Virus record (IMG/VR): IMGVR_UViG_3300034177_000075
Coordinates: 1 to 51,672 of that record
DNA length: 51,672 nucleotides
From: a virus
Direction: 5' to 3' (one strand)
Shown here: piece after piece, positions 5,237 through 39,738 of the stretch
Layout of the letters: each line of letters starts with the position of its first letter
How positions within the stretch are numbered: the stretch's first letter is position 1
The notes under the pieces: generated by a model
Seen by the model: the letters and a program-made list of their open reading frames with translations, nothing else
What the model was told of the DNA's origin: nothing
Database searches by the model: none
Made by a program: the position numbers and the translations under genes

Positions 5237-5591
5237 CGGTCCAATCGAGGCGTCGTGCCGAGCCTGGCTGAGGGAGAACATGCCCCTGGAACTGCGCGAC
5301 GACGGAGAGCCGCACTTCTCACACGTCTTACTCCTTACCGCCTTCGTCCTCAAACACTGCCGTGAGGGTAAGAGGGATATGCGGGAGCGGGCGGCCGAGT
5401 ATGTGGCTACTCACTATCCTGTCTATCACACCGGGAGAAGTTCGTTCGGGTGGATTATGGAGAAGAGCGGCCAGCCGCAAGATGGCGGAAAGGTCCAAGA
5501 GACCTATGCCAAGGCGATTCGCGCTCTGCCCGACGAGCCGGAGGAGAAACTAAAGGTATCTGCCGCGGTGATCGCGCGGATGGCCGAATGA
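5229..5591 (+). CDS. 120-aa hypothetical protein upstream of the polymerase
   Basis: GTG 5229 overlaps the previous gene by 8 nt. Helical protein with a HFSHVLLLTAFVLKHC segment and a conserved-looking YHTGRSSFGWIMEKSG stretch. The stop overlaps the ATG of the fused polymerase gene, so the two are probably translated in step. No family recognised. Confidence 0.65.
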   Translation: MANGPIEASCRAWLRENMPLELRDDGEPHFSHVLLLTAFVLKHCREGKRDMRERAAEYVATHYPVYHTGRSSFGWIMEKSGQPQDGGKVQETYAKAIRALPDEPEEKLKVSAAVIARMAE

Positions 5592-8500: not shown

Positions 8501-8725
8501 ACGGAGGCCGACGTCGTGAAACGCAAGCTCGTGGAGCTTCACCGCCAGCGCCACGAGCTGGGGCTGACTCTCCGTATGGTCGTACACGACGAGGTCGTCG
8601 GCGATGTCGCGGACGCCGAGGCCGCGGCGCGCGTCGCCGACGTCCTCGACGAACAGACGACGACGCTACGGGTACCGATCCTGTGGTCGGCCAAGACGGG
8701 CGCCAATTGGGCGGTTTGCGCTTGA
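5588..8725 (+). CDS. TAGT-family glycosyltransferase fused to family A DNA polymerase
   Basis: 1045 residues in one open frame; ATG 5588 overlaps the previous stop. Residues 1-130: the domain that usually precedes TAGT proteins (GMPEFIQEDL, SIWYPEAEIGHYA). About 136-418: TET-associated glycosyltransferase (YPVYIISKGRWESRL, GQGSIPARNW, DDN near 217, YNEDTD near 305), a family predicted to put sugar on oxidised pyrimidines in DNA. About 421-435: Pro-rich linker. About 474-615: 3'-5' exonuclease with all motifs (DLETTG, NIKFD, YAERD). About 640-1045: polymerase with motif A DARQIQLR, motif B KITNFTRIFG and motif C VHDEV. Motif A carries Gln where Pol I has Glu710, and motif B Phe where Pol I has Tyr766. 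A Cys-rich insert (CPKHGKGQRGPCPTC) lies between B and C. A 7-residue tandem duplication sits in the TAGT part. Confidence 0.9.
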   Translation: MSRGPQQAGLFGDAEEWEDDWRGMPEFIQEDLAPATSITVEFDDGPLYVHFEDRAVKLGFERKLSAALAARRLEFADGAATPARLGREWFSTIAGQDIPEGNPDRRRTQSIWYPEAEIGHYANKLYVTDAPVNPRYPVYIISKGRWESRLTSKALEELQVPYRIVVEPQERDAYAAVIDPEKILVLPFSNLGQGSIPARNWVWEHSISTGAQRHWILDDNIGGFYRLNRNLKTPVGSGAIFRASEDMVDRYENVAISGFHYFMFAFHYFMFASRKTKLPPFTLNSRIYSCILIRNDIPHRWRGRYNEDTDLSIRALKDGWCTILFSAFLAGKKQTMTMRGGNTDELYAGTEQGPTEEDGRWKMAESLRLQHPDIVAVARKWGRWQHQVDYSGFRRNRLRLRPGVTILEGVDNFGMRLVIREAPTPPTPAPAPHIEVFHTPVGAIPTIQAGMFAAPSTAWRAPEPPDLRDCRELAFDLETTGLDWRGVDRPCGVAIYPRGGVPIYLPFGHRGGDNLDERRVKDWCLTQLRGRRLWGANIKFDAHMFREWTGVDLEDLGCRLSDVQHRAALLDDHRQHFGLDVLGRDILGVGKLQGVDLSRGAAVHPSSAVGPYAERDVELTLRLADVFEPQIAAQGLGAVADLEDDIIFPVLEMERNGAPLDVEKLERWLREAEAERQATLWDVYRETGMRVDPDRPDELAALWRKLGLPEPPTTATGRPSFTGAVLKAASHPIVDKLLHAAHLADLAIKFLIPYSKRRVGDLLTFQLEQLRGEKGGTVSGRFSAHSENIQQVLSAEKQRAEYGDRYLVRELFVPRSGVLVAADARQIQLRILAHYAESPRLLAAYAADPLTDFHAEVGKMLEPFVPGFPRKRLKITNFTRIFGGGRGKIASQTGMSVEETETFLVAYDRAFPEGRAFLERASRAAKTRGYVRTFLGRRQRYPDCPKHGKGQRGPCPTCPRLHKAANDVIQGTEADVVKRKLVELHRQRHELGLTLRMVVHDEVVGDVADAEAAARVADVLDEQTTTLRVPILWSAKTGANWAVCA
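6361..6402 (+). repeat. Perfect 21-bp tandem duplication inside the TAGT domain
   Basis: Two identical 21-bp units (6361-6381, 6382-6402) give FHYFMFA twice. Family members, as I recall them, have one such segment, so this is a recent in-frame insertion. Confidence 0.9.
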
Positions 8726-22901: not shown

Positions 22902-23281
22902 AGGTCGAACTCCTGCGCGTCGCCGTGCTCCCCGAGGGTGCATTCGGCGTCCTCAAGGTCGACGGCCGGCCCGTGGCCCTGGCCCTCGAGCGCACATATA
23001 AGAATCTCGAGGTCAAGATTCCGGCGGGATCCTGGCGCTGCGTGCCGACCGTGTATCACAAAGGCCGCTACCCGACGTGGGAGATCCTGGTGCCGGGACA
23101 CTCGCGGCTGCTGTTCCATCGCGGCAATTGGGAGACGGATCTCGACGGCTGCATCGCGGTCGCGCGCTCTTTCGAGGGCACGTGGGTAAGTGGCAGCCGC
23201 GGATTCGAGGCGTTCGAGCGCGCGGCGATGCCGGACGGCGAGCGTCGCGAGTTCATGTTGGAAGTCCGAGATGCGGGGTAG
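22898..23281 (+). CDS. DUF5675 family protein
   Basis: 127 residues, full length. Contains GAFGVLKVDGRPVALALER, KIPAGSWRC and SRLLFHRGNWETDLDGCI with the conserved HxGN and GC residues of DUF5675, a family common in phage lysis regions with no established enzyme activity, sometimes likened to L,D-transpeptidase folds. ATG 22898 overlaps the prior stop. Its last 10 nt are also the first 10 nt of tRNA-Met. Confidence 0.8.
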   Translation: MKVELLRVAVLPEGAFGVLKVDGRPVALALERTYKNLEVKIPAGSWRCVPTVYHKGRYPTWEILVPGHSRLLFHRGNWETDLDGCIAVARSFEGTWVSGSRGFEAFERAAMPDGERREFMLEVRDAG

Positions 23282-23348
23282 CGCAGCATGGTAGCGCGCC
23301 TGGCTCATAACCAGGAGGTCGCCGGTTCGAGTCCGGCCCCCGCGTCCA
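23272..23348 (+). tRNA. tRNA-Met (CAT)
   Basis: Full cloverleaf with encoded CCA: acceptor TGCGGGG/CCCCGCG with a U-G first pair, D-stem GCGC/GCGC, anticodon stem CCTGG/CCAGG around CTCATAA, T-arm GCCGG-TTCGAGT-CCGGC. The anticodon stem lacks the three G-C pairs of initiators, so elongator type; a lysidine-modified tRNA-Ile cannot be excluded. It overlaps a stop codon at its 5' end and contains the start of the next protein gene. Confidence 0.9.
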
Positions 23349-25933: not shown

Positions 25934-27432
25934 TTTGCGGGGACGTGGTGTCAACGGAAGCACGGGAGGCTGTGGCCCTCCAGGAGCCGGGTTCGAGTCC
26001 CGCCGCTCCCTATGCTGCGCGTATCGACGAGGTCGAGGCCCTCGAGGCCGAGGTCGCGCGGCGATCGCTACGGTACTTCGTGCGCCTCACGTGGCCGATC
26101 GTCGAGCCGTCGGCGCCGCTCGTCTGGAACTGGCATCTCGACGTCATCTGCGATCGCCTCGAGGCCGTGACACGCGGCGACGTCAGGAACTTGATCCTGA
26201 ACGTTCCGCCCGGGTGCATGAAGAGCCTCCTCGTCTCCGTGTTCTGGCCCGCTTGGGAGTGGGCGACGGATCCCGCCAAGCGCTACCTCTGCGCGTCGTA
26301 CGGCCAGCATCTGTCGACCCGTGACAACCTCAAGGTCCGCGACATCGTGACGTCCCCCTGGTATCGGCAGCATTTTGGCGTCCGACTACGCGGCGATCAG
26401 AACGCGAAGATGCGGTTTGACACCTCGGACGGCGGGTGGCGGATTGGGACGTCGATCGGCGGCCCTGGTACCGGCGAGCATCCGCACCGGAAGATCGTGG
26501 ATGATCCGCACTCGGAGAGCCAGGCGCGGTCGGATGCCGAGCGCGAGGAGTCGCTACGATGGGTTGACGGCACGCTGTCGACGCGCGGAGTCGCCCTCGA
26601 CGCGGCGACGATCCTCGTGATGCAGCGGTTCCACCAGAAGGACATGACCGCACACTTCCTCGAGCGTGGCGGTTTCGAGCACGTAATATTCCCCATGAGG
26701 TTCGAGCTCGAGCGCGCGGATTTACGGGATCGCCGCAAGATCGCGGGCTCGTTGCTGTGGCCCGCGCTATTCCCCGAGGAAAAGGTCAAGGCGCTCGAGT
26801 TGCGGCTCGGCCAGTACGGTGTCGCGGGACAGCTCCAGCAGCGGCCGGCGCCGGCCGGGGGCGGCCTCTTCAAGCGCGCGTGGTTCGTCGTCGTCGACCG
26901 CGTGCCAGAGGGCAACCCCCGGCGCCGCGTCCGCGCCTGGGATGTCGCGGCCACGGAGGGCGCGGGTTGCCGTACGGCCGGCGTCCGGATCGCGGACTTC
27001 GGGGACAAGGCGAGCCCCCGGTTCTTGATCGAGAACGTCGAAAAGGGACAGTGGGGGCCCGCGGAGGTCGATCGGCGGATCGCGGAAGCCGCGGCTAGCG
27101 ACGGCCGTGAGTGCGCGATCCGGGAAGAGCAGGAAGGAGGGAGCGCGGGGAAGAGCGTAATCGTTGCACGGGCCCGGGCCCTCGCCGGCTACGACTACCG
27201 CGCGATGCCCGCGACGGGCAGCAAGGAGGTCCGCGCCAACGCGCTGCGTGCCCAGGCCGAGGCCGGGAATGTCGGGCTGTTGCGTTCCGGGTGGAACGCC
27301 GAATTCTTGGACGAGGCCGAGATATTTCCGAACGGCACGTACCTGGACCAGATCGACGGCGCGGCGCACGCGATGAACGACTTGGTAACGGGGCCGCGTG
27401 CGGTGGGCGTCCGCGAGGTGAGGTGGGGATGA
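25930..27432 (+). CDS. terL: Terminase large subunit
   Basis: 500 residues from GTG 25930, which overlaps the stop of the Cys-rich gene. ATPase: Walker A NVPPGCMKSLLVSVFW (~residue 94), Walker B KIVDDPH (~190), and the coupling segment TLSTRGVALDAATILVMQRF. Nuclease: RAWDVAATEGAG (~336), CAIREEQEGGSAGKS (~395) and an acidic C-terminal IDGAAHAMNDL. Family terminase_6-like. The codons for residues 4-28 are also tRNA-His; homology proper begins around EVARRSLRYFVRLTWP, so the true start could be later, but no better start codon exists after the tRNA. Confidence 0.9.
   Translation: MICGDVVSTEAREAVALQEPGSSPAAPYAARIDEVEALEAEVARRSLRYFVRLTWPIVEPSAPLVWNWHLDVICDRLEAVTRGDVRNLILNVPPGCMKSLLVSVFWPAWEWATDPAKRYLCASYGQHLSTRDNLKVRDIVTSPWYRQHFGVRLRGDQNAKMRFDTSDGGWRIGTSIGGPGTGEHPHRKIVDDPHSESQARSDAEREESLRWVDGTLSTRGVALDAATILVMQRFHQKDMTAHFLERGGFEHVIFPMRFELERADLRDRRKIAGSLLWPALFPEEKVKALELRLGQYGVAGQLQQRPAPAGGGLFKRAWFVVVDRVPEGNPRRRVRAWDVAATEGAGCRTAGVRIADFGDKASPRFLIENVEKGQWGPAEVDRRIAEAAASDGRECAIREEQEGGSAGKSVIVARARALAGYDYRAMPATGSKEVRANALRAQAEAGNVGLLRSGWNAEFLDEAEIFPNGTYLDQIDGAAHAMNDLVTGPRAVGVREVRWG
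25939..26011 (+). tRNA. tRNA-His (GTG), nested in the terminase 5' end
   Basis: Acceptor GGGGACG/CGCTCCC (one A-C mismatch, one G-U), D-stem GTGT/GCAC, anticodon stem GGAGG/CCTCC around CTGTGGC, T-arm CCGGG-TTCGAGT-CCCGC (last pair mismatched). No encoded CCA and no G at -1, so it needs host maturation. Its imperfections make it less certain than tRNA-Met. Confidence 0.65.
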
Positions 27433-27593
27433 TTCCTCGGCGCTGGTGGACGGACCCGCTGGTTGCCGCGCCATTCGCGCGGCTCGAGATCCGGCGCGCG
27501 CCGCGCGTGGAGGACCTTCGCAGGTGGTACGTTGGAGAGGGTTGGATCGTACCCGAATCGGGTATGATCCAACCCAATGAGGGTACGCCATGA
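27429..27593 (+). CDS. 54-aa hypothetical protein
   Basis: ATG 27429 overlaps the terminase stop. Trp/Arg-rich (MIPRRWWTDPL, LRRWYVGEGWIV). Its 3' end contains a 16-bp inverted repeat. Stop overlaps the next ATG. Unknown function. Confidence 0.6.
   Translation: MIPRRWWTDPLVAAPFARLEIRRAPRVEDLRRWYVGEGWIVPESGMIQPNEGTP
27539..27575 (+). other. Strong stem-loop at the end of the 54-aa gene
   Basis: 16-bp stem with one G-U type mismatch position (GGGTTGGATCGTACCC against GGGTATGATCCAACCC) and a 5-nt loop. No U-run follows, so it is not a standard terminator; it may act as mRNA processing or attenuation site before the adsorption genes, or as a binding palindrome. Confidence 0.6.
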
Positions 27594-27784
27594 AGATCGG
27601 CGACGGCCTGCTCCTTGGTACGCCGGGCGCCGGCGCGTTCGGCGCCGTGATCGCCGTGTACCCCGACCGCGTCGTCTGCCTGTTCCCGGATGTCCGGCAG
27701 GTGCCGTGCGTAATCGCGACGCTCTATCCGGAGTACGCGGCGGCGCTCAAGGCGCCGCTCGCCGGCCTCGAGGTGTGCACGTGA
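27590..27784 (+). CDS. 64-aa hypothetical protein
   Basis: ATG 27590 overlaps the prior stop. Compact beta protein (AFGAVIAVYPDRVVCLFPDV). No family recognised. Overlaps the next gene as GTGA. Confidence 0.6.
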   Translation: MKIGDGLLLGTPGAGAFGAVIAVYPDRVVCLFPDVRQVPCVIATLYPEYAAALKAPLAGLEVCT

Positions 27785-28503
27785 TCTTCCCGCTGCAGGG
27801 GTCGCTCGGGCCGCTCGGCCAGAAGTTCGGCGCCGCCGCGGCGCAGAACCAGGACCTCATCGACCTCGTCGACGCGTTCTGGAAACTGGACGAGGCGTCC
27901 GGCTCGCGAGTAGACAGCGGCCCCAACGGCCTGACGCTGACCGACACGGGGTCGGTGGGCAGCGGCGCCGGGCACGTCTACCCGACGGCCGCGCTCTTCA
28001 CGGGGTCGACGGCGCAGAAGCTCGGGCACGCCGACGACGCGGCGCTCCAGGGGTTCGCTACCAGCTACACGTGGGCGGCGTGGCTCAAGCCGACGTCGAC
28101 TGGGACGTTCCAGGCCATCATGAGCAAGGAGACTCCGGAGGAGTACGATATTTATGTTGATCACAACGGAGGGTCGCCGCGGCTGCGTGTAGACATGTCC
28201 ACGATCGTGCTCGTCGGTGGCTCCGGGGACCTTGCGTACGGCTCGTGGCACCTCGCGATCGTCTGGAACGACAAGGCGGCCGGCGTGACGCATCTCCAAG
28301 TCGACAACGGGACCGTCTACGACTCCACCGTCCACGGTTCCGTCGCGAGCGGTACCGCGCCGTTCGCAATCGGGAGGCTCGCGACCTCAGTAGCCTTCGC
28401 CGCGTCGGGGCTCTACGGCCCGGAGATGAAGTTCCACGACGTGCTAGACGCTTCGCAGCGGCCCCGGCTCTGGAACGCCGGCGCCGGACTTCCACTGTAC
28501 TAA
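27781..28503 (+). CDS. LamG/concanavalin-like lectin-domain structural protein
   Basis: 240 residues; GTG 27781 overlaps the previous stop. After ~30 residues the LamG-type fold begins: FWKLDEASGSRVDSGPNG, YTWAAWLKPTSTG, LAYGSWHLAIVWNDKA and a final FHDVLDASQRPRLW. Such domains bind sugars on phage tail fibres or decorate capsids. Shares the LDEASG motif with the C-terminal domain of the protein at 32339. Confidence 0.75.
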   Translation: MIFPLQGSLGPLGQKFGAAAAQNQDLIDLVDAFWKLDEASGSRVDSGPNGLTLTDTGSVGSGAGHVYPTAALFTGSTAQKLGHADDAALQGFATSYTWAAWLKPTSTGTFQAIMSKETPEEYDIYVDHNGGSPRLRVDMSTIVLVGGSGDLAYGSWHLAIVWNDKAAGVTHLQVDNGTVYDSTVHGSVASGTAPFAIGRLATSVAFAASGLYGPEMKFHDVLDASQRPRLWNAGAGLPLY

Positions 28504-28787: not shown

Positions 28788-30488
28788 ATGAGCTGGGAGC
28801 AGATCTCGAACGCGATCGACTTCTACTTTTTCTACGTGGAGTCGAAGCTCGGGAAGACCGGGCTCACCGTGACGGTCGACGTGTTCCGAGCCGGTTCCCT
28901 GATCGTGACCGGCGCCTCGGCCGTGGAGGTCGGCGACGGGCTCTACCGCTACACGCTTGCCACGGGATCGGTCACCGTTGAGGGCGAATACGCGGCCGTC
29001 GCAAAGACGAGCACGAGTTCTGTGGACCAACAGTGGATCCCCGCGCTCTGGATCGTTGGCCGCGGCGGGATCGAGCGGCTCGACGTCAACGTCGGGACGA
29101 TCGGCGACCTGGTAGAGCATCGCTACGGGACGCATACGGCGCAGCGGTCCGTCCACCTGTATGTGGCGCCGAACACGGGCAATGACACGACGGGCGACGG
29201 CTCGCGCGCTCTCCCCTACGCGACGGTGACGAAGGCGCTCTCCGTGCTCACGACCTCGAACCGGCACGCCGTAATCTTCCTCATCGCGGACTCGACGTCG
29301 GGGGCGACGACGCTGACGGAGGCCGTGACGATCAACAAGCCGTACGTGTTCATCAAGGGCCCGGGGCGCGACTTCATCTGGACGCGGACGGGGAACGGCC
29401 CGACGATCACGGTATCGTCGGATGGCGTGTCGCTGTCCGGTTTCCAGCTCGAGTCCCCGGGCATCGCGCCGACGAGCCGCGGCGTCAGCGCCACGGACGT
29501 CGACTTCCTGCTCGTCCACCGCGTGTGGTTCAACGCGACGTCCGGCGACGGCGTCCGGATCCTGCGCGGCGACAACTGCCGCATCTATGACTGCGACTTC
29601 CAGGGCACGGGGAGCGCGGCTGCGGCCGACGCGATTTCCCTGGAGGGCACCGCGGGGACCGCGAGCTACAACGAGATCGTGGAGTCCCGATTCTCGCTCG
29701 CCCAGGGGGATGCGGTACACCTCACGGCCGCGACGTTCACGAAGATCGAGCGCTGCACGTTCCAGGGGAGTACCGAGTTCGGAGTTAACGTCAGCGGCGC
29801 GGCCAACACCGATACGCTGCTCATCGACAATCGCTGGGGGTCGAACACGCTCGGCAACCTCAGCGACACCGGGACGCGGACGATCGACCAGAACAACGAC
29901 GCCTACACGGAGCAGGACACGTGGACGGCCGCCAAGGCGGCATTCGTAGACGCCGCGATCAGCAGCCGCTCGACGCTCACGGCGCAGCAAGCCGAGGATG
30001 AGATCCTTGGCGCAGTAGTACCCGGCGCCTACGTCGCGGGCACCGCGGGATTCGCGCTCGGCCGTATCGGTACCGCGGAATTCGAAGTCGTGTCGCCCGT
30101 GGCGCTCGACGGCACGCTGACGCTCGTCCAGGGCGACGACTACGACGCGGATGAGGGACGGCAACTGGACTTCACGGAGACCGCGGCCTCGGCTTGGCCG
30201 GTGCTCACGGACGCGACGGTCAAGTTGACAATCCGGAGCCTCGCGGATTCCCTGATCTTCACGGCTACCGGATCCGTCATCACGGCCACGGGGTCTTCCA
30301 AGAAGGTCCGCTTCGAGCTGACCGCAGCGCAGACGCTGCTCCTGGCGGTGACGAACAACCCTGGATCCGCAACGCCGACGTCGCGATACAAGTACGACGT
30401 CGAGGCCACTCTCGCGGGCTTGAGCGCGAGGATCGCGACGCTCGCATTTGGCGCGGTTACGGTGCAGCAGCATCAAACCCGCCCGTAG
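28788..30488 (+). CDS. Beta-helix tail spike or adsorption protein with BppU-like C-terminus
   Basis: 566 residues. N-terminal beta domain (VTVDVFRAGSLIVTG, DGLYRYTLATG). Residues ~120-340 show parallel right-handed beta-helix wording: GSRALPYATVTKAL, NKPYVFIKGPGRDF, FQLESPGI, VWFNATSGDGVRIL, NCRIYDCDFQGTGS and IERCTFQGS. The C-terminal ~140 residues (VQGDDYDADEGRQLDF, VKLTIRSLADSLIF) resemble upper baseplate protein BppU. Likely host recognition or polysaccharide binding; no catalytic residues can be named. Confidence 0.75.
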   Translation: MSWEQISNAIDFYFFYVESKLGKTGLTVTVDVFRAGSLIVTGASAVEVGDGLYRYTLATGSVTVEGEYAAVAKTSTSSVDQQWIPALWIVGRGGIERLDVNVGTIGDLVEHRYGTHTAQRSVHLYVAPNTGNDTTGDGSRALPYATVTKALSVLTTSNRHAVIFLIADSTSGATTLTEAVTINKPYVFIKGPGRDFIWTRTGNGPTITVSSDGVSLSGFQLESPGIAPTSRGVSATDVDFLLVHRVWFNATSGDGVRILRGDNCRIYDCDFQGTGSAAAADAISLEGTAGTASYNEIVESRFSLAQGDAVHLTAATFTKIERCTFQGSTEFGVNVSGAANTDTLLIDNRWGSNTLGNLSDTGTRTIDQNNDAYTEQDTWTAAKAAFVDAAISSRSTLTAQQAEDEILGAVVPGAYVAGTAGFALGRIGTAEFEVVSPVALDGTLTLVQGDDYDADEGRQLDFTETAASAWPVLTDATVKLTIRSLADSLIFTATGSVITATGSSKKVRFELTAAQTLLLAVTNNPGSATPTSRYKYDVEATLAGLSARIATLAFGAVTVQQHQTRP

Positions 30489-30500
30489 GAGGGTAGAGAC

Positions 30501-32084
30501 ATGCCGAAGGGACCCGATCCATCCGCGCCGCGGCGGGAGTACCTCGCGCGCGTGAGCCAGTGGGAGAGGTGCCGGGATTCATACGCGGGCGAGGACGCGG
30601 TCAAGGCGCGCGGCACGGCGTACCTGCCGCCGCTCGACAGCCATGAGCGGGATCCGCGGCTCTACGCCGCGTACCTCAAGCGTGCGCTGTTCTACAACGC
30701 GTTCGGCCGCACCGTTGACGGCCTGGCCGGCGCGATTCTCCAGCAGCCGCCGCGGCTCAAGCTGCCGAGCATCGTCGAGGATGACGCACGCGACGTGACG
30801 CTCACTGACGTGCCGTTCGAGGCCCTGGCGCGCGACGTCCTACGCGATGTCCTGATGGTCGGCCGCGTCGGCATCCTGATCGAGATGTCGGAGCAACGTC
30901 CCTATTGGTGCGTCTACGACGCCGAGGCGATCATCAACTGGCGCACCGAGATGGTAGGCGGCGACCAGATATTGACGCGCGTCGTACTCTCGGAGCGGGA
31001 GGAGGAGCAGGACGTCGACAACCCGTTCGCCACCAAGTTCGTTGATCAGATCCGGGTCCTCGAGCTGATGGCCGGCGTCTACCAGGTAACGCGCTACCGC
31101 AAGACGGACGGCAAGTGGCTGGCGATCGACGAGGTGCCGCTCGTGCCGAGTGCGCGCGGGACACCTCTGGACTACATCCCATTCGCGTTCGTCGGCGCGG
31201 CGGCGTCGTCGCCGTGCCCGGAGAAGCCGCCGCTACTCGACCTCGTGAGCGTCAACCTCTCGCACTACCGGACGTCTGCGGACCTCGAGCACGGGCGGCA
31301 TTATCTCGCGATCCCGATGCTCGTCATCATCGGCCAGCAGCTCGGCGATCAGACGGGCGGCAAGGGCCCCGTGGAAGTAGGTAGCGGCGTCGCGCTCTCG
31401 CTCGAGGTCGGCGGCGACGCCAAGATTATCTCGGCGTCCTTGGAACTGGCCGCCCTGGAACGCGCGGATGCCGACAAGCGGCGCATGATGGCGACGCTCG
31501 GCGCGCGGCTGCTCGAGGAGCAGGCGTCGACCGCGGAGACGGCGACGGCGGTTTCGATGCGGCACGCCGGCGAGCACGCGACGTTGCGGACCATCGCGGA
31601 GACCGTAGAGAAGATCCTCGAGCAGTGCTGGCGCTGGCACTCGCGATGGGCGGGCGTCCCCGAGGGCGCCGAGGTCGCGGTCGAGCTGAACAAGAACTTC
31701 TTCGCCGCGCCGATGGCGCCGGACGAATTGCGGTCGCTCGTTCAGGCGTTCCAGGCCGGCGCCTTCGGCTTTGACACGCTGTACGCGAATCTTCAGCGCG
31801 GCCAGATCGCGCGGCCGGGTATCACCGCGGAGCAGGAGAGGGCGACGATTCGCGATGAGGACCCGGGACTCGACGTCGAGCCCGGGGACGAGCCGGCGGC
31901 GGGACCTGGGATGATGGCGGGCGACTTCGTCATACAGGACGAGGGCCCCTACAAGATGGTGCGCCGCAAGGGGAAGTTCGTGGTCATCAAGGCGGACACC
32001 GGAGAAGTCGTCAAGTCACACGACACTAAGGACATGGCGATGAAGCACCTCGCGGCGCTTCACGCGAACGTGAAGGACTATTGA
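30501..32084 (+). CDS. Portal protein (DUF4055-type) with C-terminal add-on domain
   Basis: 527 residues; GGAGGG precedes ATG 30501. Body matches phage portals of the DUF4055 type: RVSQWERCRDSYAGEDAVKA, YLKRALFYNAFGRTVDGL, DVLRDVLMVGRVGILIEM. The last ~60 residues (YKMVRRKGKFVVIKADTGEV, then AMKHLAALHANVKDY) are a separate small domain seen at the ends of some phage head proteins. Forms the dodecameric DNA channel at the capsid vertex. Confidence 0.8.
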   Translation: MPKGPDPSAPRREYLARVSQWERCRDSYAGEDAVKARGTAYLPPLDSHERDPRLYAAYLKRALFYNAFGRTVDGLAGAILQQPPRLKLPSIVEDDARDVTLTDVPFEALARDVLRDVLMVGRVGILIEMSEQRPYWCVYDAEAIINWRTEMVGGDQILTRVVLSEREEEQDVDNPFATKFVDQIRVLELMAGVYQVTRYRKTDGKWLAIDEVPLVPSARGTPLDYIPFAFVGAAASSPCPEKPPLLDLVSVNLSHYRTSADLEHGRHYLAIPMLVIIGQQLGDQTGGKGPVEVGSGVALSLEVGGDAKIISASLELAALERADADKRRMMATLGARLLEEQASTAETATAVSMRHAGEHATLRTIAETVEKILEQCWRWHSRWAGVPEGAEVAVELNKNFFAAPMAPDELRSLVQAFQAGAFGFDTLYANLQRGQIARPGITAEQERATIRDEDPGLDVEPGDEPAAGPGMMAGDFVIQDEGPYKMVRRKGKFVVIKADTGEVVKSHDTKDMAMKHLAALHANVKDY

Positions 32085-32230
32085 TGGACCCTCAGCAGAA
32101 CGTGTTGATGCTGTTCGCGGTCCTCTTGCGGATCGAGACCGCGATCCTGTTGTCGGCTGCGGCGTCGAGCGCCGTGGCCGTTGCCGTGCTCCTCGGCGCG
32201 TGGGCGGTCTCGCGCGCGGCGAGAAAGTAG
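32084..32230 (+). CDS. 48-aa membrane peptide
   Basis: ATG 32084 shares a base with the portal stop (TGATG). Two hydrophobic stretches (VLMLFAVLLRIETAILLSAA and SSAVAVAVLLGAW) could be one or two membrane helices. Small holin-like peptide in the head-gene region; role unknown. Confidence 0.6.
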   Translation: MDPQQNVLMLFAVLLRIETAILLSAAASSAVAVAVLLGAWAVSRAARK

Positions 32231-32242
32231 ACGCCATGGCCG

Positions 32243-32333
32243 TACGTGGCCCCCGAGCATTTCAGCGGGCAGCCCGGGGGATGAGCGCCGCAGACGGTCG
32301 AGTCCCCGCTCGGCCGGGTTTGGGGGCCACGTA
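32243..32333. ncRNA. Candidate structured RNA element before the PseG-like gene
   Basis: The gap holds a perfect 12-bp closing helix TACGTGGCCCCC (32243-32254) / GGGGGCCACGTA (32322-32333) enclosing ~67 nt that can form further helices (CGAGC with GCTCG, GGGGGA with TCCCC). The 3' strand runs into AGGG just 5 nt before ATG 32339, so folding could control translation. Could also be an untranslated DNA site. Confidence 0.45.
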
Positions 32334-32338
32334 GGGCT

Positions 32339-34633
32339 ATGGCGCACACTCCGAAGTACAGCGTGATCTTGCAAGCTGACTCGTCGGCGGCCGGCAACGT
32401 CAACCGCGCGATGTGGGCGTCGTTCTTGGCGCGGCGACTAGACAGCCGCGGCTACAAGGTGGCGCTCCAGATCACGGGCGATCCTGGGCGTATCTGGGCT
32501 GAGGCCTACGGGATGTTCCCGCTGTTCCTGCCCGCGGGCGAGCCCCCCGAGAACTGCGAGGTCCTGTTCCGCCTGTTCGCGCCTGGGCAGTGGCCGGCGC
32601 GCCCCGGGACGCCGCCGCACGCGCCGCACGTGATCGACTTCGCGTTCAATCCGTCAGGCGCCTCGGGGGATGCAGACCATATCCTCGCGTTGTACGCCGA
32701 CACCATGCCGGCCACGATACTCCCGCGGTTGATCACGGACCACATCCTCGCGCCGATCCCTGAAGAAGTCTACGTGATTCGGCGCGATCGCGTCCTTCGG
32801 CAAATCGTGGTGTTCCTCGGTACCGACCCCAATAACCGTACCGCCGGACTCCTGACGGCTCTCGCCGAGCAGTTCCCGAAGATCGAGGGTACGGCGTCTT
32901 CGACCCAGGACCAGAACATCACGTCACACGCTGTCGCGCTGCCGCCGCCAAGCTCGGCGCCCGGGACGATCATCGGCGAGCTGATCGTGGTGATCGCGGG
33001 ATTCGACGGCAACCCCACGGTGACGTGGCCGGCCGGTTGGACGCAGTTCTTCGGCGGGAACAACGGCGGGGCCGTGCGGCTGGCCGCGGCGTACCGCGTG
33101 GCGGACGGCACGGAGCAGGAGCGGATCAGCGTCACGACGAGCGCGGGATTGCGTTCTAGCCATGTTGCATACCGCATCTCGGGAGCCGCGGCCGCGCCGA
33201 CGGCATCGGCGTCGGCGACAGGCTCGAGTACGGCGCCGAATCCGGCGTCGTTCACGCCCGCGGGCGGCGCGAAGTCCTACCTCTGGCTCGCTGCCGAGGC
33301 GCACGGCGGAAACGAGGTCCCGGTCACCGTCTACCCGTCCGGCTACGTTCGCGGCGTCTCGGCGGCCAATAATGGCGGGAACGTCGCGGCGACGTCGCGG
33401 GGTATCAAGGCCGCGACGGAGGACCCGGGGGCGTTCACGCTATCGTCATCGAATGCCTGGGTCGCCGCGACGTTCGCGATTGCACCGGCCGCGATCTACA
33501 CGTCGAAGGCTGTTGTCCTTCCCGACAACTCGCTTAGCGGCCCGGATATCTCACACAACCCGCGGTTCTGGGAGGAGATGCGAACGGCGGATGTCGTGGT
33601 ATGCTCTCCCGGGGCGCCACACCAGGTCGCCGGCGCCCTCGGAGTCCCCGCCGTCATCGTGTCGAATACCGCGCAGGAGGACGCGCGAATGGTGAGCGCG
33701 GCCGAGACCGGGCAGGAGCACCTATTCTACCTCGGGCTCATCACGTCGCTGACCGACGAGTTCATCCGCGACCAGGTGCACGAGGTCCTGCTGCCGGTAC
33801 CGGCCGCGGACGCGATGCGCCGCGTCATGGGCGTCGCCGGCCGCGTCGTGGTGTCCTCGGATAGATCGCGGGCCATTAGCTCGTGGCTCTCGCGCTACTT
33901 CATCGGCGCCGGGCGGAATGACCCCTTCAACGTCCAGGGGTTCTCGACCGTCCTGCCCGACGAGATGCCGCCGGACCGCGTGCCGTTCCCGGCGTCGATC
34001 GCGGGCATCCGCGCGTACTGGCGGCTGGATGAGGCGTCGGGCGCGCGGCTCAACGTCATCTCGGGCTCGGTGTTCGGAGACCTCGCGGAGACTGGGACCG
34101 TGGGCCAGGAGCCGATGGGCGTCAAGTACCAGGCGGCGACGGTCGTCGCCACGGGGCCGGGGTCGAACTACCTGGAGAGCGACGCGGAACTGTTGCTGAC
34201 GTCGACGCGGACGGTAGCCCTGTGGTTCAGGGTCAGCGCCGTCGGCGGGTTCTCGGTGATCTTCCTCTCCGCGGCGGGGTCGTCCGACCCCTTCGAGTTG
34301 AAGCTGCTGTCCTCGGGGAGGTTCAACCTCAGCGTCGCCGGCGGCGCGGACGACACGGGCGCCGCGGTAATCTCGGCGAGCACCTTCTACCATCTGGTCG
34401 TGGACTACGACGCCGCGACGGGGGACAGCCGGCTCTTCGTCGACGGCGCGCTCGACGTCACCATCCCGGGGGTGTCACACGCGGACGCCACGCTGCGCGC
34501 GCTGCGCTTCGGCGCGCAGGGTACCGGCGGCGCGACGTTCACCTTCGACGAGGCCGGGGTCTGGGACCGGCTGCTGACGGACCAGGAGCGCGCGGACCTG
34601 CTCACGAAGTTCTACCCGTTCATGCAGGCGTAG
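32339..34633 (+). CDS. PseG-like sugar-nucleotide enzyme split by an inserted beta domain, with C-terminal LamG domain
   Basis: 764 residues. About 1-180: first half of a PseG-type GT-B fold (VILQADSSAAGNVNRAMWAS, ILPRLITDHIL, VVFLGTDPNNRTAGLLTAL). About 181-390: inserted phage beta-sandwich (ELIVVIAGFDGNPTVTWPAG, ADGTEQERISVTTS, DPGAFTLSSSNAWVAATF). About 391-530: second PseG half (MRTADVVVCSPGAPHQ, VAGALGVPAVIVSNT). About 555-764: LamG lectin domain (YWRLDEASGARLN, RTVALWFRVS). PseG hydrolyses UDP-linked pseudaminic acid precursors; here it is probably adapted to bind or modify surface sugars on the virion. Weak ribosome site (GTAGGG). Confidence 0.7.
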   Translation: MAHTPKYSVILQADSSAAGNVNRAMWASFLARRLDSRGYKVALQITGDPGRIWAEAYGMFPLFLPAGEPPENCEVLFRLFAPGQWPARPGTPPHAPHVIDFAFNPSGASGDADHILALYADTMPATILPRLITDHILAPIPEEVYVIRRDRVLRQIVVFLGTDPNNRTAGLLTALAEQFPKIEGTASSTQDQNITSHAVALPPPSSAPGTIIGELIVVIAGFDGNPTVTWPAGWTQFFGGNNGGAVRLAAAYRVADGTEQERISVTTSAGLRSSHVAYRISGAAAAPTASASATGSSTAPNPASFTPAGGAKSYLWLAAEAHGGNEVPVTVYPSGYVRGVSAANNGGNVAATSRGIKAATEDPGAFTLSSSNAWVAATFAIAPAAIYTSKAVVLPDNSLSGPDISHNPRFWEEMRTADVVVCSPGAPHQVAGALGVPAVIVSNTAQEDARMVSAAETGQEHLFYLGLITSLTDEFIRDQVHEVLLPVPAADAMRRVMGVAGRVVVSSDRSRAISSWLSRYFIGAGRNDPFNVQGFSTVLPDEMPPDRVPFPASIAGIRAYWRLDEASGARLNVISGSVFGDLAETGTVGQEPMGVKYQAATVVATGPGSNYLESDAELLLTSTRTVALWFRVSAVGGFSVIFLSAAGSSDPFELKLLSSGRFNLSVAGGADDTGAAVISASTFYHLVVDYDAATGDSRLFVDGALDVTIPGVSHADATLRALRFGAQGTGGATFTFDEAGVWDRLLTDQERADLLTKFYPFMQA

Positions 34634-34900
34634 ATGGCACGCCGGCCTGAAGCCTATCGCAGGATCCACGCCGCCGCCGACGCCGCGGAGGCGCGGTTCC
34701 GGCGCGCGTTCGCGCGAGCGGCCGCCCGCGCCCGCGCGAGGCTGAGGCTCGAGGCCCTCGCCGCGGTGATCGCCCGCGGCGGCGGCGACACGTCGGGCCT
34801 CGACAAGGGCCTCGGCGAGGTATTCAAGCCACTCGGCGAGATCCTGCACGACGCCTATATGCGCGGCGGCCGCGAGGGCGCGCGGGTGATCAATGGCTAG
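34634..34900 (+). CDS. 88-aa hypothetical head-region protein
   Basis: ATG 34634 immediately follows the previous TAG. Arg/Ala-rich helix (RFRRAFARAAARARARLRL), then a Gly-rich hinge and GEILHDAYMRGGREGARVI. In related phages a similar short helical protein precedes or is part of the minor head protein. Overlaps the next gene by 8 nt. Confidence 0.6.
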   Translation: MARRPEAYRRIHAAADAAEARFRRAFARAAARARARLRLEALAAVIARGGGDTSGLDKGLGEVFKPLGEILHDAYMRGGREGARVING

Positions 34901-35477
34901 CCTGCCGACACCCGGCCGCGCGGGGTTCCGCTTCGACGGCAACAATCCCGCGGCCGCGCGCGCAGCCGAGCAGCGCGGCGCGCTTCTCGTCGTCGGCCTG
35001 ACGCGGCAGCAGCGGGACACCGTCCGCGGGATCGTTGTGCGCTCGATCCGCGACGGCATCCCGCCGCTCGAGGCCGCGCGCCTGATCCGCTCCGTCGTCG
35101 GCCTGGATCCGCGGCGCGCCCAGGCCGTCGCGAATTACCGCGCGGAACTCGTCGAGCAGGGGGCCGCGAACGTCTCGGCGCTCGTCGACCGTTACGCGGC
35201 TCGCCAGTTGCGGCAACGCGCGGACGTGATCGCGCGTACCGAGATCCTCGAGGCGCTCAACGATGGCGCTCTCGAGTCCTGGAGGCAGGCCCGCGAGGAC
35301 GGATTCCTGGGCGGGAATGCCGCCAAGGAGTGGATCGTGACTCGCGATGAGAAGTTGGACGACGAATGCGCGGCGCTCGACGGCGAGGTCGTACCCCTAG
35401 ACGCGCAGTTCTCGGCGGGCGTCGACGGTCCGCCGCTTCACCCGCAATGCCGATGTGCCGTAGCCCCAGTAGTTTAG
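34893..35477 (+). CDS. Minor head protein (Mu gpF-like head morphogenesis)
   Basis: 194 residues. Helical N-terminal half (GIPPLEAARLIRSVVGL) then the conserved block RADVIARTEILEALNDGALE, WIVTRDEKLDDEC and the terminal LHPQCRCAVAPVV, the signature of phage head morphogenesis proteins of the Mu gpF/SPP1 gp7 type. ATG 34893 overlaps the previous gene. Helps build or eject from the capsid. Confidence 0.8.
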   Translation: MASLPTPGRAGFRFDGNNPAAARAAEQRGALLVVGLTRQQRDTVRGIVVRSIRDGIPPLEAARLIRSVVGLDPRRAQAVANYRAELVEQGAANVSALVDRYAARQLRQRADVIARTEILEALNDGALESWRQAREDGFLGGNAAKEWIVTRDEKLDDECAALDGEVVPLDAQFSAGVDGPPLHPQCRCAVAPVV

Positions 35478-35483
35478 CGGGGC

Positions 35484-35511
35484 TTGACACGGCGAGCGAA
35501 AAGCGTATACT
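35484..35511 (+). promoter_or_regulatory. Promoter before the scaffold and capsid genes
   Basis: -35 TTGACA (35484-35489), 16-nt spacer, -10 TATACT (35506-35511), the best -10 in the window. A ~10-nt leader with AGGAGG then leads to ATG 35528. Well placed to boost scaffold and major capsid expression. Confidence 0.75.
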
Positions 35512-35527
35512 TGCTATAGGAGGTCGG

Positions 35528-36361
35528 ATGGCGAAAGCGACGATCAAGGCGTTGACCGAGGTCCCGGAGGCGCTCCGCGCCGAGTACAAGTTCGACGATC
35601 ACGCGCAAGTGTTCGTCCTCAACGTAGAGGGCGACCTCCCGGGGACCGCGAAGGCCGCGGACCTCGCGGCCGCGAACTCGAAGATCGTGGAGTTCCGCGA
35701 CAACAATCGGCGGCTCATGGCCGCGCTCGGCGCCGAGACGATCGACGGCGCGACCCAGCGCGCGGAGGCGCTCAAGGGATTCGACCCCAAGAAGTTCGAG
35801 GGCGTCGACCCCGAGGAGTTCCGGGCACTCAAGGCCAAGGCCGCGAAGCTCAAGGACAAGGGGGTCGACGACCCCGACCAGATCGACGCGCGGTTCAAGG
35901 CCATGCTGGACGCCGCGATCAAGCCGGTAAACGACAAGCTCGCGTCCACCGAGGCCGACCTCTCGGCGGCGCGGAAAAAGGCCGATGAGGGGATCTTCCG
36001 GAATTCGGTTCAGGCGCCATTCTTGAAGGCCGGGGGCAAGGCCGACGCGGTCGACTTCGTGATGCTCCGCGCCGCGGAGAAGTTCACGGTCGTCGGCGGC
36101 ACGATCAAAGCGCGGCCTGACGCGTTCAGCGCCGACAAGCCGGGCGAGCCCCTGGGGCTCGACGAGTGGCTGTCCGGGTTCCAGAAGACGAGCGCCTTCG
36201 CGTTCGAGCCCAGCAAGGGTGCGGGTACCACCCCCGGTAACGGGAGCGGCGGCGCAGCGATCCGACAGGGTGCGCGGGTTCTGACGAACCCCACGGCTCA
36301 GGATCTCGGGAAGTACGCAAAGGAAATCGCTAAGGGCGAGGTCGTCATCGCCAATTCGTAA
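35528..36361 (+). CDS. Scaffolding protein (phage GP20-like)
   Basis: 277 residues; AGGAGG 5 nt before ATG 35528. N-terminal EVPEALRAEYKFDDHAQVF, then long charged helices (AANSKIVEFRDNNRRLMAAL, LKAKAAKLKDKGVDD) and a C-terminal segment AAIRQGARVLTNPTAQDLG. The length, charge and position just before the coat gene are those of phage minor structural GP20/scaffold proteins, which template capsid assembly. Confidence 0.75.
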   Translation: MAKATIKALTEVPEALRAEYKFDDHAQVFVLNVEGDLPGTAKAADLAAANSKIVEFRDNNRRLMAALGAETIDGATQRAEALKGFDPKKFEGVDPEEFRALKAKAAKLKDKGVDDPDQIDARFKAMLDAAIKPVNDKLASTEADLSAARKKADEGIFRNSVQAPFLKAGGKADAVDFVMLRAAEKFTVVGGTIKARPDAFSADKPGEPLGLDEWLSGFQKTSAFAFEPSKGAGTTPGNGSGGAAIRQGARVLTNPTAQDLGKYAKEIAKGEVVIANS

Positions 36362-36500
36362 CGTTTTCAAGGGGCTCGCAGCAGCGGGTCCCAATGAGAA
36401 TGGCCGGAAGAAGCCGCAAAGTCGCAGCCGGCTCGGGTCGGCAGCAGGGCCCTCGGGGGCTCCAACAAAAATAAGCCGTTCTTCTTGAAGGAGTTTCTAG
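36362..36500. other. Structured leader before the major capsid gene
   Basis: 139 nt without a gene. Potential helices: GGGTCC (36386-36391) with GGGCCC (36448-36453), and around 36402 GGCCGG with CCGGCT enclosing a purine-rich loop. It ends in GAAGGAG before ATG 36501. Probably an mRNA leader that shapes or protects the capsid message; no U-run for a terminator. Confidence 0.45.
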
Positions 36501-37640
36501 ATGGCCGGAGCACTCGTCACCACCAACATTCTCCAGACGCTCGTCGCCATGGGGCTCAACGCCCTGCGAGAGCAGATCGTCCTCACCAAGCTCGTCAATC
36601 GCAACTACGAGGGTTTGATCGTCGGCTCCTCGCGCGGTTCCACCGTCAACGTCTCGGTCCCCGCCGCGGTCGCGACGCGAACCGTGGCCCCCGACGTCGT
36701 GCCGCCCGCGGTTACCGCGGTGACGCCCACGAGCGTCGCCGTCACGCTCTCCGAGTGGGAGGAGGCGCCCTTCGCGATCGACGACAAGGGCCTCGCCCAG
36801 GTCGCGGCCGGGATCATCCCGATGCAGGCGAGCGAGGCCATCAAGGCCCTGGCCAACGGGATCGACAACTTCCTGTGGGGCAAGTACAAGAAGTTCTACG
36901 GCTACGCCGGAGTCGCGGGCACCGTGCCGTTCGCCACCGACCTCTCCGAGTACCTCGACGCCCGCAAGGCCGCGAACGACCAGCTCATGCCCAGGGACCC
37001 CCGGTACATGCTGATCGACACCGACGCCGAGGCCAACGCGCTCGGTCTCCGTGCGTTCCAGGATGCGAGCTTCGGCGGCGGCGCCGATGTGATCGTCAAC
37101 GGCCAGATCGGCCGGAAGCTGGGCGCCCTCTGGGCCATGACCCAGAACGTGCCGACGCACACGGCGGGGACCTGGAATGACACCGGGACGACCACGGGCA
37201 CGAACGCCGCGGGCCAGGCGACGGTCAACCTCACGGGCGGCACCGGGTCGCTGCTCGTCGGCGACATCATCACGTTCTCGGGTGCCGACACCCAGACGTA
37301 CGTGGTGTTGACGGCCACGGGTACGGCGCCGACCACGGCCATTACCGTGAGCCCCAACCTCGTGACCGCGAAGTCCTCGACCGAGACGGTGACCAACAAG
37401 GCGACCCACAAGGTCAACCTCCTGATCCACCGCGACGCGATCGCGTTCGCGATGGCGCCGCTCAACGACGCGGCCGGCATCTCGGGTGTCCTGGCGCCGG
37501 TGACGGCGGTCGACGAGGAGTCGGGCTTGAGCCTGCGCCTCGAGGTCACGCGGCAGCACAAGCAGCTCCAGTGGAGCTTCGACGCGCTATATGGCGCGTC
37601 GGTGATCCGCCCCGAGCTGGGCGTCCGTCTCGCCGGGTAG
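36501..37640 (+). CDS. Major capsid protein (P22 coat-like)
   Basis: 379 residues with GAAGGAG 7 nt before the ATG. Begins MAGALVTTNILQTLVAMGLN, and the blocks VNVSVPAAVATRTVAPDVVP, ANGIDNFLWGKYKKFYGYAG and VTRQHKQLQWSFDALYGASV match the P22 coat (gene 5-like) family. Residues ~225-290 (TAGTWNDTGTTTGTNAAG to TGTAPTTAITVSPNL) are a Thr/Gly-rich insertion domain. Forms the HK97-fold shell. Confidence 0.85.
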   Translation: MAGALVTTNILQTLVAMGLNALREQIVLTKLVNRNYEGLIVGSSRGSTVNVSVPAAVATRTVAPDVVPPAVTAVTPTSVAVTLSEWEEAPFAIDDKGLAQVAAGIIPMQASEAIKALANGIDNFLWGKYKKFYGYAGVAGTVPFATDLSEYLDARKAANDQLMPRDPRYMLIDTDAEANALGLRAFQDASFGGGADVIVNGQIGRKLGALWAMTQNVPTHTAGTWNDTGTTTGTNAAGQATVNLTGGTGSLLVGDIITFSGADTQTYVVLTATGTAPTTAITVSPNLVTAKSSTETVTNKATHKVNLLIHRDAIAFAMAPLNDAAGISGVLAPVTAVDEESGLSLRLEVTRQHKQLQWSFDALYGASVIRPELGVRLAG

Positions 37641-37654
37641 TTCCATAACTGACG

Positions 37655-37684
37655 CGCGGGGGCGGCCTTCGGGCCGCTCCCGCG
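37655..37684 (+). other. Hairpin with UUCG loop after the capsid gene
   Basis: 13-bp stem CGCGGGGGCGGCC/GGCCGCTCCCGCG (one G-U) closed by TTCG. Very stable, with no T-run, so likely an mRNA 3'-stabiliser or weak terminator that keeps capsid message abundant relative to downstream genes. Confidence 0.75.
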
Positions 37685-37703
37685 ACACAGAAAGGAAACG
37701 CAC

Positions 37704-38420
37704 ATGGACCCTCGTCTCTACCCCTCGGGCCGCGACTTCGCGAAGACCGCGGCAATCGACTTCAGCAAGTTCGCGCGCGTCGCCGGCCGCACGCTCATCA
37801 AGGCCGGGAGCTACGGCTCCAAGCTCGCGTGCCCCTCCGATTCCGGGCAGTCGCAGGTCAGCATGCACACGCGGCAGGCCGGGACGTCGTTCACCTACCA
37901 GTCGTTCCGCAGCCTCGGACTCGCGGGCGCCGGCGCGGCCGGTGTCGTCGGCGACCACTTCACCCTGGACTTGCACTCCGGCGGTACCACGGCTTCGGCG
38001 CACACGACGGAACAGCACCTCAACCTGGAGACGGGCTCCACGCTGTCGGCCGGCGGCGCGGCCGCGGTCGCGGACGGCGCGTGCTCGTGGATGAAGCTCT
38101 ACGGCAACTCGGCGGTCCCCGCCTCGGGGTCGAAGCTCTGCGTCCTCTGGCTCGACAGCCAGCTCGGCGCCGGCGGCGCGGTCCAGGGCACGGAGTACGT
38201 GCTCTTCATCACGGCTGGTGGTAGTGTGCCGCGCGCGGCCATCGGGTTCAAGACGACGTCCGGGGGCTGGACGGCGCTCGCGCGGTTCGAGGACTCGGGA
38301 TCGCCCCCGGTCGCGGCCGCGGTGCAGGCGGCGAAGTTCGGAGGCAACTCGACGGGCTCCATCCAGTTCGAGGTCGGGAGCACGATCGTCTACGTGCCCT
38401 ACTTCGACGCCCTAAGCTAA
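37704..38420 (+). CDS. 238-aa putative capsid decoration or head protein
   Basis: AAAGGAAACGC precedes ATG 37704. N-terminal MDPRLYPSGRDFAKTAAIDF, then a beta-rich Gly/Ser/Thr body (TYQSFRSLGLAGAGAAG, LNLETGSTLSAGGAAAVA) ending VGSTIVYVPYFDALS. Flanked by strong hairpins on both sides like a highly expressed structural gene. Not recognised at family level; decoration protein is inference from position. Confidence 0.65.
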   Translation: MDPRLYPSGRDFAKTAAIDFSKFARVAGRTLIKAGSYGSKLACPSDSGQSQVSMHTRQAGTSFTYQSFRSLGLAGAGAAGVVGDHFTLDLHSGGTTASAHTTEQHLNLETGSTLSAGGAAAVADGACSWMKLYGNSAVPASGSKLCVLWLDSQLGAGGAVQGTEYVLFITAGGSVPRAAIGFKTTSGGWTALARFEDSGSPPVAAAVQAAKFGGNSTGSIQFEVGSTIVYVPYFDALS

Positions 38421-38430
38421 ACCCTTTCTC

Positions 38431-38462
38431 GCGGGGCGGCCGCCGCGTGGCCGCCGCCCCGC
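38431..38462 (+). other. Intergenic hairpin
   Basis: 10-bp perfect stem GCGGGGCGGC/GCCGCCCCGC with an inner 3-bp extension and GCGT loop, between the decoration-type gene and the next. No T-run. Similar in role to the hairpin at 37655. Confidence 0.7.
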
Positions 38463-38479
38463 CTTCAGAGGAGAAGTGA

Positions 38480-38794
38480 ATGCTGCTCGACGTCGCCGAA
38501 CGCCTGCTCCTGCTGGACGTTTTGTCTCGCGCGTCGGGGAATCTCGCGACGCTGCGGGTCGTGCGCGACCTTCAGCACGACGTCGGGTTCACCGATGACG
38601 AGAACCAGGCCCTCGCGTTCCAGTATGAGGGGTCGGTCGTCCGCTGGAAGTCCGACGCGGCGCAGTCGCGGGAATTCAAGATCAGTCGCTCCGCGCGCGA
38701 CATCGTGCTCGCCGCGATCAAGAAGTTGGACCGCGACGAGGCGCTGACCTTGGCGCATCTCGCGGTGTTCGAGAAGCTCGAGGAGGAGAAGTAG
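38480..38794 (+). CDS. 104-aa conserved phage protein
   Basis: AGAGGAGAAGTGA precedes ATG 38480. Reads LLDVAERLLLLDVLSRASGN, RVVRDLQHDVGFTDDENQAL and a C-terminal helix KKLDRDEALTLAHLAVFEKL. This pattern recurs in phages between capsid and neck genes without known function. Confidence 0.65.
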   Translation: MLLDVAERLLLLDVLSRASGNLATLRVVRDLQHDVGFTDDENQALAFQYEGSVVRWKSDAAQSREFKISRSARDIVLAAIKKLDRDEALTLAHLAVFEKLEEEK

Positions 38795-39220
38795 ATGGCC
38801 GAGATCCAGCCCAACCGTAAGATCGGGCTCCTGCCCGCCTATACGATCGCGGCGTCGGGGACCACGGTGTCCCAAGAGGTGCCGGTACCCCGAGACGGCC
38901 ACGTGCTCTCGCTCGAGGCCAAGTTCCTCTACGGCGCCGGCGGCACCTCGGCGAAAGCCTATGTGCAGACGAGCCTCGATGGCGGGGCCTCGTGGTTCGA
39001 CATTGCGTCGTTCGCGTTCGCGACGACGGCGGCGAACAAGGTGAGTGCCGTCAACCGCTCGATCGCCCCGGCGTCCCAGGCGTTCACGCCCACGGACGGG
39101 ACGCTGACGGACAACACGATCATCCAGGGTGTTCTGGGCGACCGCGCGCGCGTCAAACTCATCGTCGTCGGCACGTACACGGGGGCGTCGAGCGTCGAGC
39201 TGGTGGGAGTATTCGACTGA
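38795..39220 (+). CDS. 141-aa structural protein, beta-rich
   Basis: ATG 38795 directly follows the preceding TAG. Reads as a beta-sandwich (ASGTTVSQEVPVPRDGHVLS, GTSAKAYVQTSLDGGASWFD, LVGVFD). Similar proteins with DGGASW motifs occur among phage head-tail genes. Possible minor capsid or connector component. Confidence 0.6.
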   Translation: MAEIQPNRKIGLLPAYTIAASGTTVSQEVPVPRDGHVLSLEAKFLYGAGGTSAKAYVQTSLDGGASWFDIASFAFATTAANKVSAVNRSIAPASQAFTPTDGTLTDNTIIQGVLGDRARVKLIVVGTYTGASSVELVGVFD

Positions 39221-39738
39221 TGGCCGTCCCGGTCCTCGTCGCCACGTCCGGCGCCTCGAACGCGAATTCGTATTGCACTGTGGCCGAGGCCACGACATAC
39301 CACGAATCGCACTTGTACAGTACGGATTGGACATCGGCGTCCACGGACACCAAGACCATAGCGCTGATCCACGCGACGCGCGAGATAGAAGCGCGCTTCG
39401 AATGGGTGTCGTTCCCGACGTCCCAGGACCAGGCGCTCCAGTGGCCGCGGTCCTCGATCCTCAAGCGCGGCGGCATCGACTATTACGACAATGACGTGGT
39501 GCCGCCCGAGATCAAGAACGCCGTGTCAGAGTACGCGCGGCAGCTTATCGCCGGCAACCGCTCGGCAGACTACGACGTCGAGACCAAGGGCTTGCGCTCG
39601 CTCATCGCGGGTCCCATCTCCCTGGAGTTCAAGGACTCGGCGACGGCGCGGCCGGTGCCCGACGCCGTGCTCGCGCTGATCCCCTCGTGGTGGGGGTGGC
39701 TCGCCAATCGCGGGATGCGGCCGCTGCTGAGGGCCTGA
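39220..39738 (+). CDS. Head-tail connector (DnaT-like/gp6-type adaptor)
   Basis: 172 residues; ATG 39220 shares a base with the preceding stop. N-terminal NSYCTVAEATTYHESHLY, then KTIALIHATREIEARFEWVS and a C-terminal region with LIPSWWGWLANRG. This is the common phage DnaT-like ssDNA-binding/adaptor family, in practice a head-tail connector. Confidence 0.75.
   Translation: MAVPVLVATSGASNANSYCTVAEATTYHESHLYSTDWTSASTDTKTIALIHATREIEARFEWVSFPTSQDQALQWPRSSILKRGGIDYYDNDVVPPEIKNAVSEYARQLIAGNRSADYDVETKGLRSLIAGPISLEFKDSATARPVPDAVLALIPSWWGWLANRGMRPLLRA

Follow-up and report, generated by a model that had tools for sequence, protein, structure and literature searches.

The gene at 32339..34633 raises the question of whether a protein built like a sugar enzyme, and encoded among the head genes of a phage, still acts as such an enzyme or has been put to another use on the virion. 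It lies in a 51,672-base record of an uncultivated virus, the whole of which was analysed (hereafter the window), and starts with an ATG that opens a frame of 764 aa with no internal stop. An earlier note on this DNA had described the product as an enzyme resembling PseG (UDP-2,4-diacetamido-2,4,6-trideoxy-beta-L-altropyranose hydrolase; 3HBM/3HBN, TIGR03590; MurG/GT-B superfamily), interrupted by a beta domain, capped by a LamG domain and encoded in the head gene cluster. The features concerned are as follows, in window coordinates:

30501..32084, + strand: portal protein, upstream neighbour (phrog_145, E 7e-120)
32339..34633, + strand: gene of the 764-aa protein, an ORF with homologues in viral contigs L003, L005 and L006
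32339..32758, + strand: N-terminal GT-B (acceptor-side) Rossmann-like domain, residues ~1-140 (PseG profile alignment; fold of the L005 homologue)
32786..32890, + strand: first part of the C-terminal (nucleotide-side) domain, with strand 1, the GTDPxxR loop and helix 1, residues ~150-184 (aligned to the PseG GGTD loop; strand and helix in the model)
32891..33493, + strand: beta-rich phage display module of the TVTWPAGW family, residues ~185-385 (absent from L005/L006, present in L003 and in at least six other phage architectures)
33494..33928, + strand: remainder of the C-terminal domain (FWxExRxADVxVxSxG..H..., NTAxED), residues ~386-530 (hhalign to PseG 95%; the L005 equivalent has Z 11.8 to a UDP-glycosyltransferase C-domain)
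34004..34588, + strand: LamG/concanavalin-like lectin domain (PF13385 at residues 608-750; kin to the protein at 27577-28503)
34893..35477, + strand: MuF-like head morphogenesis protein, downstream neighbour (PF04233, E 3e-14; phrog_3517)
36501..37640, + strand: P22-type major capsid protein (PF11651; phrog_283, E 8e-65)

The genes run in the order portal, 764-aa protein, MuF-like protein, scaffold and P22-type capsid, which bears out the placement in the head cluster. Pseudomonas phage 73 is one of the isolated phages with the closest portals (~33% identity); judging from these relatives and from its tail genes, the virus is probably a siphovirus. The C-terminal LamG domain was likewise recovered as described (Laminin_G_3, E 5e-17, 62.8 bits against a cut-off of 27.6), and it is the sole domain of the 764-aa protein that Pfam recognises. 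A second LamG protein, encoded upstream in the same cluster (27577-28503), is related to this domain (27% identity, E 4e-7), and a right-handed beta-helix protein (28788-30488, PF13229) lies between terminase and portal. The window also carries tRNA-Met (23272-23348), a possible tRNA-Arg (8234-8314) and tRNA-His (25939-26011); the last falls within the 5' end of the terminase ORF as listed, so the true start of the terminase is probably further downstream. Between the portal and the 764-aa gene is a small ORF (32084-32230) of ~48 aa with a hydrophobic stretch, followed by a hairpin at 32232-32344 (23-nt arms, 91% complementary, -80.5 kcal/mol, z -6.6). The start codon of the 764-aa gene and its upstream AGGG sit in the 3' arm, so the hairpin could mask the translation start; no hairpin of this kind stands upstream of the homologous gene in L005 or L003. 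The 764-aa protein showed neither a signal sequence nor any known virion-anchoring sequence, and PADLOC returned no match that would indicate a defence role.

Among the viral contigs searched, the protein occurs in three lineages only: that of the window, L003 and L005/L006. No further relatives were found in phage, plasmid and genome collections, phage matches at E ~1 having been left out as unreliable. The L005 and L006 homologues (552 aa, 54% identity) come from two other metagenomes, are near-identical to each other, and have the LamG domain and lack the insert. The L003 homologue (533 aa, 44% identity) shows the reverse, with the insert present and LamG absent. In L005 the gene stands in the same order as in the window (portal, gene, MuF, scaffold, major capsid protein), and in L003 it stands amid beta-helix, protease and capsid genes. 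The beta-helix gene near the L003 homologue is pectate-lyase-like, and the phage head gene cluster of that contig also encodes, at 233-1876, a protein whose kinase domain is PI3/PI4-kinase/HipA-like (PF00454, E 4e-11). The capsid gene of the window (36501-37640) has 90% DNA identity to that of L005, whereas the portal and GT-B genes have just 67-69%, a contrast that points to mosaic exchange.

Is the fold truly that of PseG? Single-sequence searches with the GT-B part or the insert gave nothing useful in Pfam, NCBIfam, PHROGs, PADLOC or PDB sequences; the PseG model TIGR03590 had no match at E<=10, and NCBIfam held no PseG or other glycosyltransferase match for the window, L005 or L003 proteins. 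Profiles were more telling. We aligned an insert-free family profile (L005, L003 and the window) to a profile of 14 PseGs, drawn from 3HBM and plasmid-borne homologues. Hhalign matched residues 137-320 to PseG with 93% probability and a score of 57.4, against 26.8 for the best of 200 column shuffles, 12.9 for the reversed profile and 23.2 for the best of 16 other window proteins. The C-half against the PseG C-half gave 95% and a score of 54.9 (100 shuffles, <=22.7), and the global match of the two profiles gave 97%. The MurG and WecB profiles reached 55% and 5%, respectively. The claimed kinship with PseG is thus upheld, with the C-half far above shuffles and decoys, and residues 1-184 and 386-530 together appear to make one PseG-like GT-B unit.

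Structural comparison was less discriminating. AlphaFold modelled the full 764 aa with a pLDDT of 28, with an insert of beta-rich appearance. The GT-B region of the insert-free L005 protein reached pLDDT 59 and pTM 0.46 in one of five models (33-39 in the others) and is GT-B-like. The composite fold foreseen in the earlier note was not contradicted by prediction, although this insert-free model in its favour is of just medium confidence. The leading matches in both Foldseek and VIA-align were other GT-B enzymes (WecB, UGT, MurG); the absence of PseG there does not count against the relationship, because whole-chain superposition is poor (whole rmsd 10-15 for GT-B enzymes matched over the whole length). 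Over 134 residues, the L005 C-domain superposes on that of a UDP-glycosyltransferase with an rmsd of 3.4. Since receiver domains of the CheY type reach scores close to those of GT-B C-domains, structure by itself is not specific; specificity comes from the profile match. A sceptic might see in these results a generic two-domain Rossmann-like protein without kinship to sugar enzymes, a reading in which the display modules would stand as they are. The receiver-domain matches would suit it, as would the fact that the C-half alone is strong: the N-half by itself gave 10% and a marginal score of 24.1, with shuffles reaching 23.9. We nevertheless think it quite improbable. The C-half match, besides exceeding every decoy, takes in the linker (ALLRPEF / APIPDEV) and reaches the GGTD loop; the weak N-half match falls on PseG residues 2-44, the expected place of the N-terminal motif; and the full-length structural matches, over residues 6-324, are GT-B enzymes.

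The second question is how the beta-rich segment came to interrupt this fold. In the window and L003, ~200 residues separate VVFLGxDPxxR and its helix from the next strand, and in L005/L006 the GT-B part is continuous. The insertion is real, because L005/L006 carry an uninterrupted GT-B part in the same slot and L003 shares the insertion site. The earlier note was right about a domain insertion at a loop, which proves to be natural; its placement of the insert between the two GT-B halves did not hold, as the insert lies inside the second half. It follows strand 1 and helix 1 of the C-terminal nucleotide-binding Rossmann domain, near beta2-alpha2 of PseG, and by the PseG alignment it replaces or comes after beta2 and occupies the place of alpha2. 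Assembly artefacts were considered and rejected for the 3' junction, which is covered by a near-identical fragment of the same virus from another metagenome (L002; 99.97% identity over 33295-39630), and for the empty site, which was recovered from two metagenomes (L005, L006). The 5' junction rests on the window contig and the analogous L003 junction.

The module turns up in six or more further phage protein architectures, in keeping with the claim that it is also seen alone in other phage proteins (L012, L013, L031, L032/L033, L034, L035). It is N-terminal in L031, L013 and L035, lies near the C-terminus in L034, and is internal to the L032/L033 protein of 884 aa. In L012 it forms the C-terminus of a 946-aa protein, encoded near a tape-measure-like gene, that combines it with LamG and matches a virion structural PHROG. 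This spread supports the view that the insert is a reusable, mobile phage display module. The window and L003 inserts are each other's closest relatives (54-55% identity, tree support 87/81), and between these two proteins the insert (54%) is more conserved than the N-terminal GT-B part (37%). Their grouping favours one insertion or a shared transfer. A GT-B tree rooted with PseG has long branches and an uninformative root; the module may have been gained before the window and L003 lineages split and then lost in L005, or may have moved between phages.

Whether the cleft could still work as that of PseG was judged from the residues invariant in all 14 PseGs, which include R6, G14, G16, H17, E239, N255 and Q256. 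His17 (C. jejuni PseG) we take to be the catalytic residue, in view also of this invariance. At its column in the GxGHxxR motif, L005, the window and L003 have R, R and N, respectively, and the phage motif is without any His: the RxDxSxxIGxGHxxR of PseG becomes QxDSSxxxNxNR in the N-terminal domain. There is no His in residues 1-40 of the L005 protein, and the window protein has H3 only, with none in residues 4-40. The nucleotide-binding Glu239 is T, V and S in L005, the window and L003; Gln256 is lost and Arg6 replaced by Gln in all three lineages; and the Asn255-Gln256 pair is not kept. The insert-free proteins show the same losses, so these are independent of the insertion and are a property of the phage family.

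These replacements weaken the 'active enzyme' reading, and the suggestion that the protein stays active as a PseG-type sugar processor is not supported (His17, Glu239, Gln256 and Arg6 are missing in three lineages). The binding device that the earlier note offered as its other option is plausible. That a PseG-type UDP-sugar hydrolase remains active despite the insertion, as a virion-borne sugar-processing device, accordingly strikes us as very unlikely, even if PseG is the best-matching profile, over MurG and WecB, and the GTD loop is retained. Besides the missing residues, Gly14 and Gly16 among them, it has against it the silence of TIGR03590 even at E 10 and the supply of nucleotide sugars, which virions would presumably lack. 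The GT-B part nevertheless has many polar residues that do not vary across the three lineages, which may reflect either a genuine but altered activity or a binding site for a ligand. In the former case, a GT-B enzyme with a rebuilt site would act in the infected cell, glycosylating a virion protein or the surface polysaccharide of the host, and LamG and the insert would direct it to its substrate. Not every member of the diverse GT-B class depends on the PseG His, and active glycosyltransferases are among the structural search matches. Phage genomes can carry glycosyltransferases, which have been proposed to glycosylate the phages' own capsids (PMC11256854). We still regard such an enzyme as rather unlikely, given the lost PseG His, Glu and Gln, the lack of any glycosyltransferase HMM match, the predicted position of the insert in the nucleotide-binding domain near the cleft, and the presence of two domains typical of virion surface proteins.

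Another glycosylation gene lies elsewhere in the window. A 1091-aa frame at 5450-8725 (+ strand) joins a TET-associated glycosyltransferase (TAGT) domain (PF20691, E 4e-42, residues 182-387) to DNA polymerase A (PF00476, residues 710-1088) and a 3'-5' exonuclease. Such a fusion of a DNA-base glycosylation enzyme with the replicative polymerase would be striking and suggests modified DNA. If the phage does glycosylate its own DNA, the 764-aa protein might be imagined as a DNA-modifying GT-B glucosyltransferase (cf. T4 beta-glucosyltransferase) that partners the TAGT domain; its location in the head cluster, its LamG and display module and the lack of a match to DNA glucosyltransferase models leave this with hardly any probability.

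Taking the domain make-up, the insertion, the mobility of the module, the position of the gene and the loss of PseG residues as established, we give about an even chance to a structural or adhesive protein, carried on the virion, in which a PseG-like GT-B fold has been repurposed as a chassis for display modules. A role in virion display or adhesion is suggested because LamG and the insert are used in virion-type phage proteins and the gene holds the portal-MuF position. On the virion, the protein would sit in or close to the head-neck region, as gene position and modules indicate, and would display two modules, the beta-rich one within the C-terminal Rossmann domain and the C-terminal LamG, which may bind surface glycans of cells or of the surroundings. 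Its cleft would no longer hydrolyse UDP-sugars in the manner of PseG; it might merely hold the fold together, or use a rebuilt set of conserved residues to bind a ligand, the candidates being N20, N22, D99, D112-H113, the GTDPxxR loop and H221 (L005 numbering). Across the homologues the insert and LamG each come and go while the chassis is constant, and insert-bearing and insert-free alleles exist at the same genomic place. We therefore suggest, somewhat more tentatively, that a sugar-enzyme fold serves as virion chassis and that its nucleotide-binding domain gains and loses a display module, varying what the virion displays.

Set beside known systems, the protein resembles PseG in the layout of the C-domain, the linker motif and the GTD loop, over ~175 columns. 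It differs from PseG in lacking the catalytic His, the nucleotide Glu and the Asn-Gln pair, in having a domain inside the C-domain and an added LamG, and in being encoded in a head cluster. As the catalytic residues are gone, fold alone should not label such phage genes as sugar enzymes. With MurG, a UDP-GlcNAc transferase, the likeness lies in the ADVVVCxSGA motif region of the C-domain; the match covers 102 columns only, and the phage protein has neither the ribose-binding Glu nor the GGTGGH loop. Swapping of display domains in phage structural proteins is known, mostly at their ends. Tailed phages carry promiscuous virion display domains (Ig-like, LamG, BACON) and shuffle protein fragments (PMC10684548). 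The insert and LamG act as mobile phage modules of this sort, but here one module lies inside an enzyme-type Rossmann domain instead of at the end of structural domains or between them. If the protein is on the virion, it would offer an enzyme fold as chassis, a display module inside a nucleotide-binding domain, and natural insert-free alleles with which to compare it. The architecture is therefore unusual, while its general kind, module shuffling in phage proteins, is already known.
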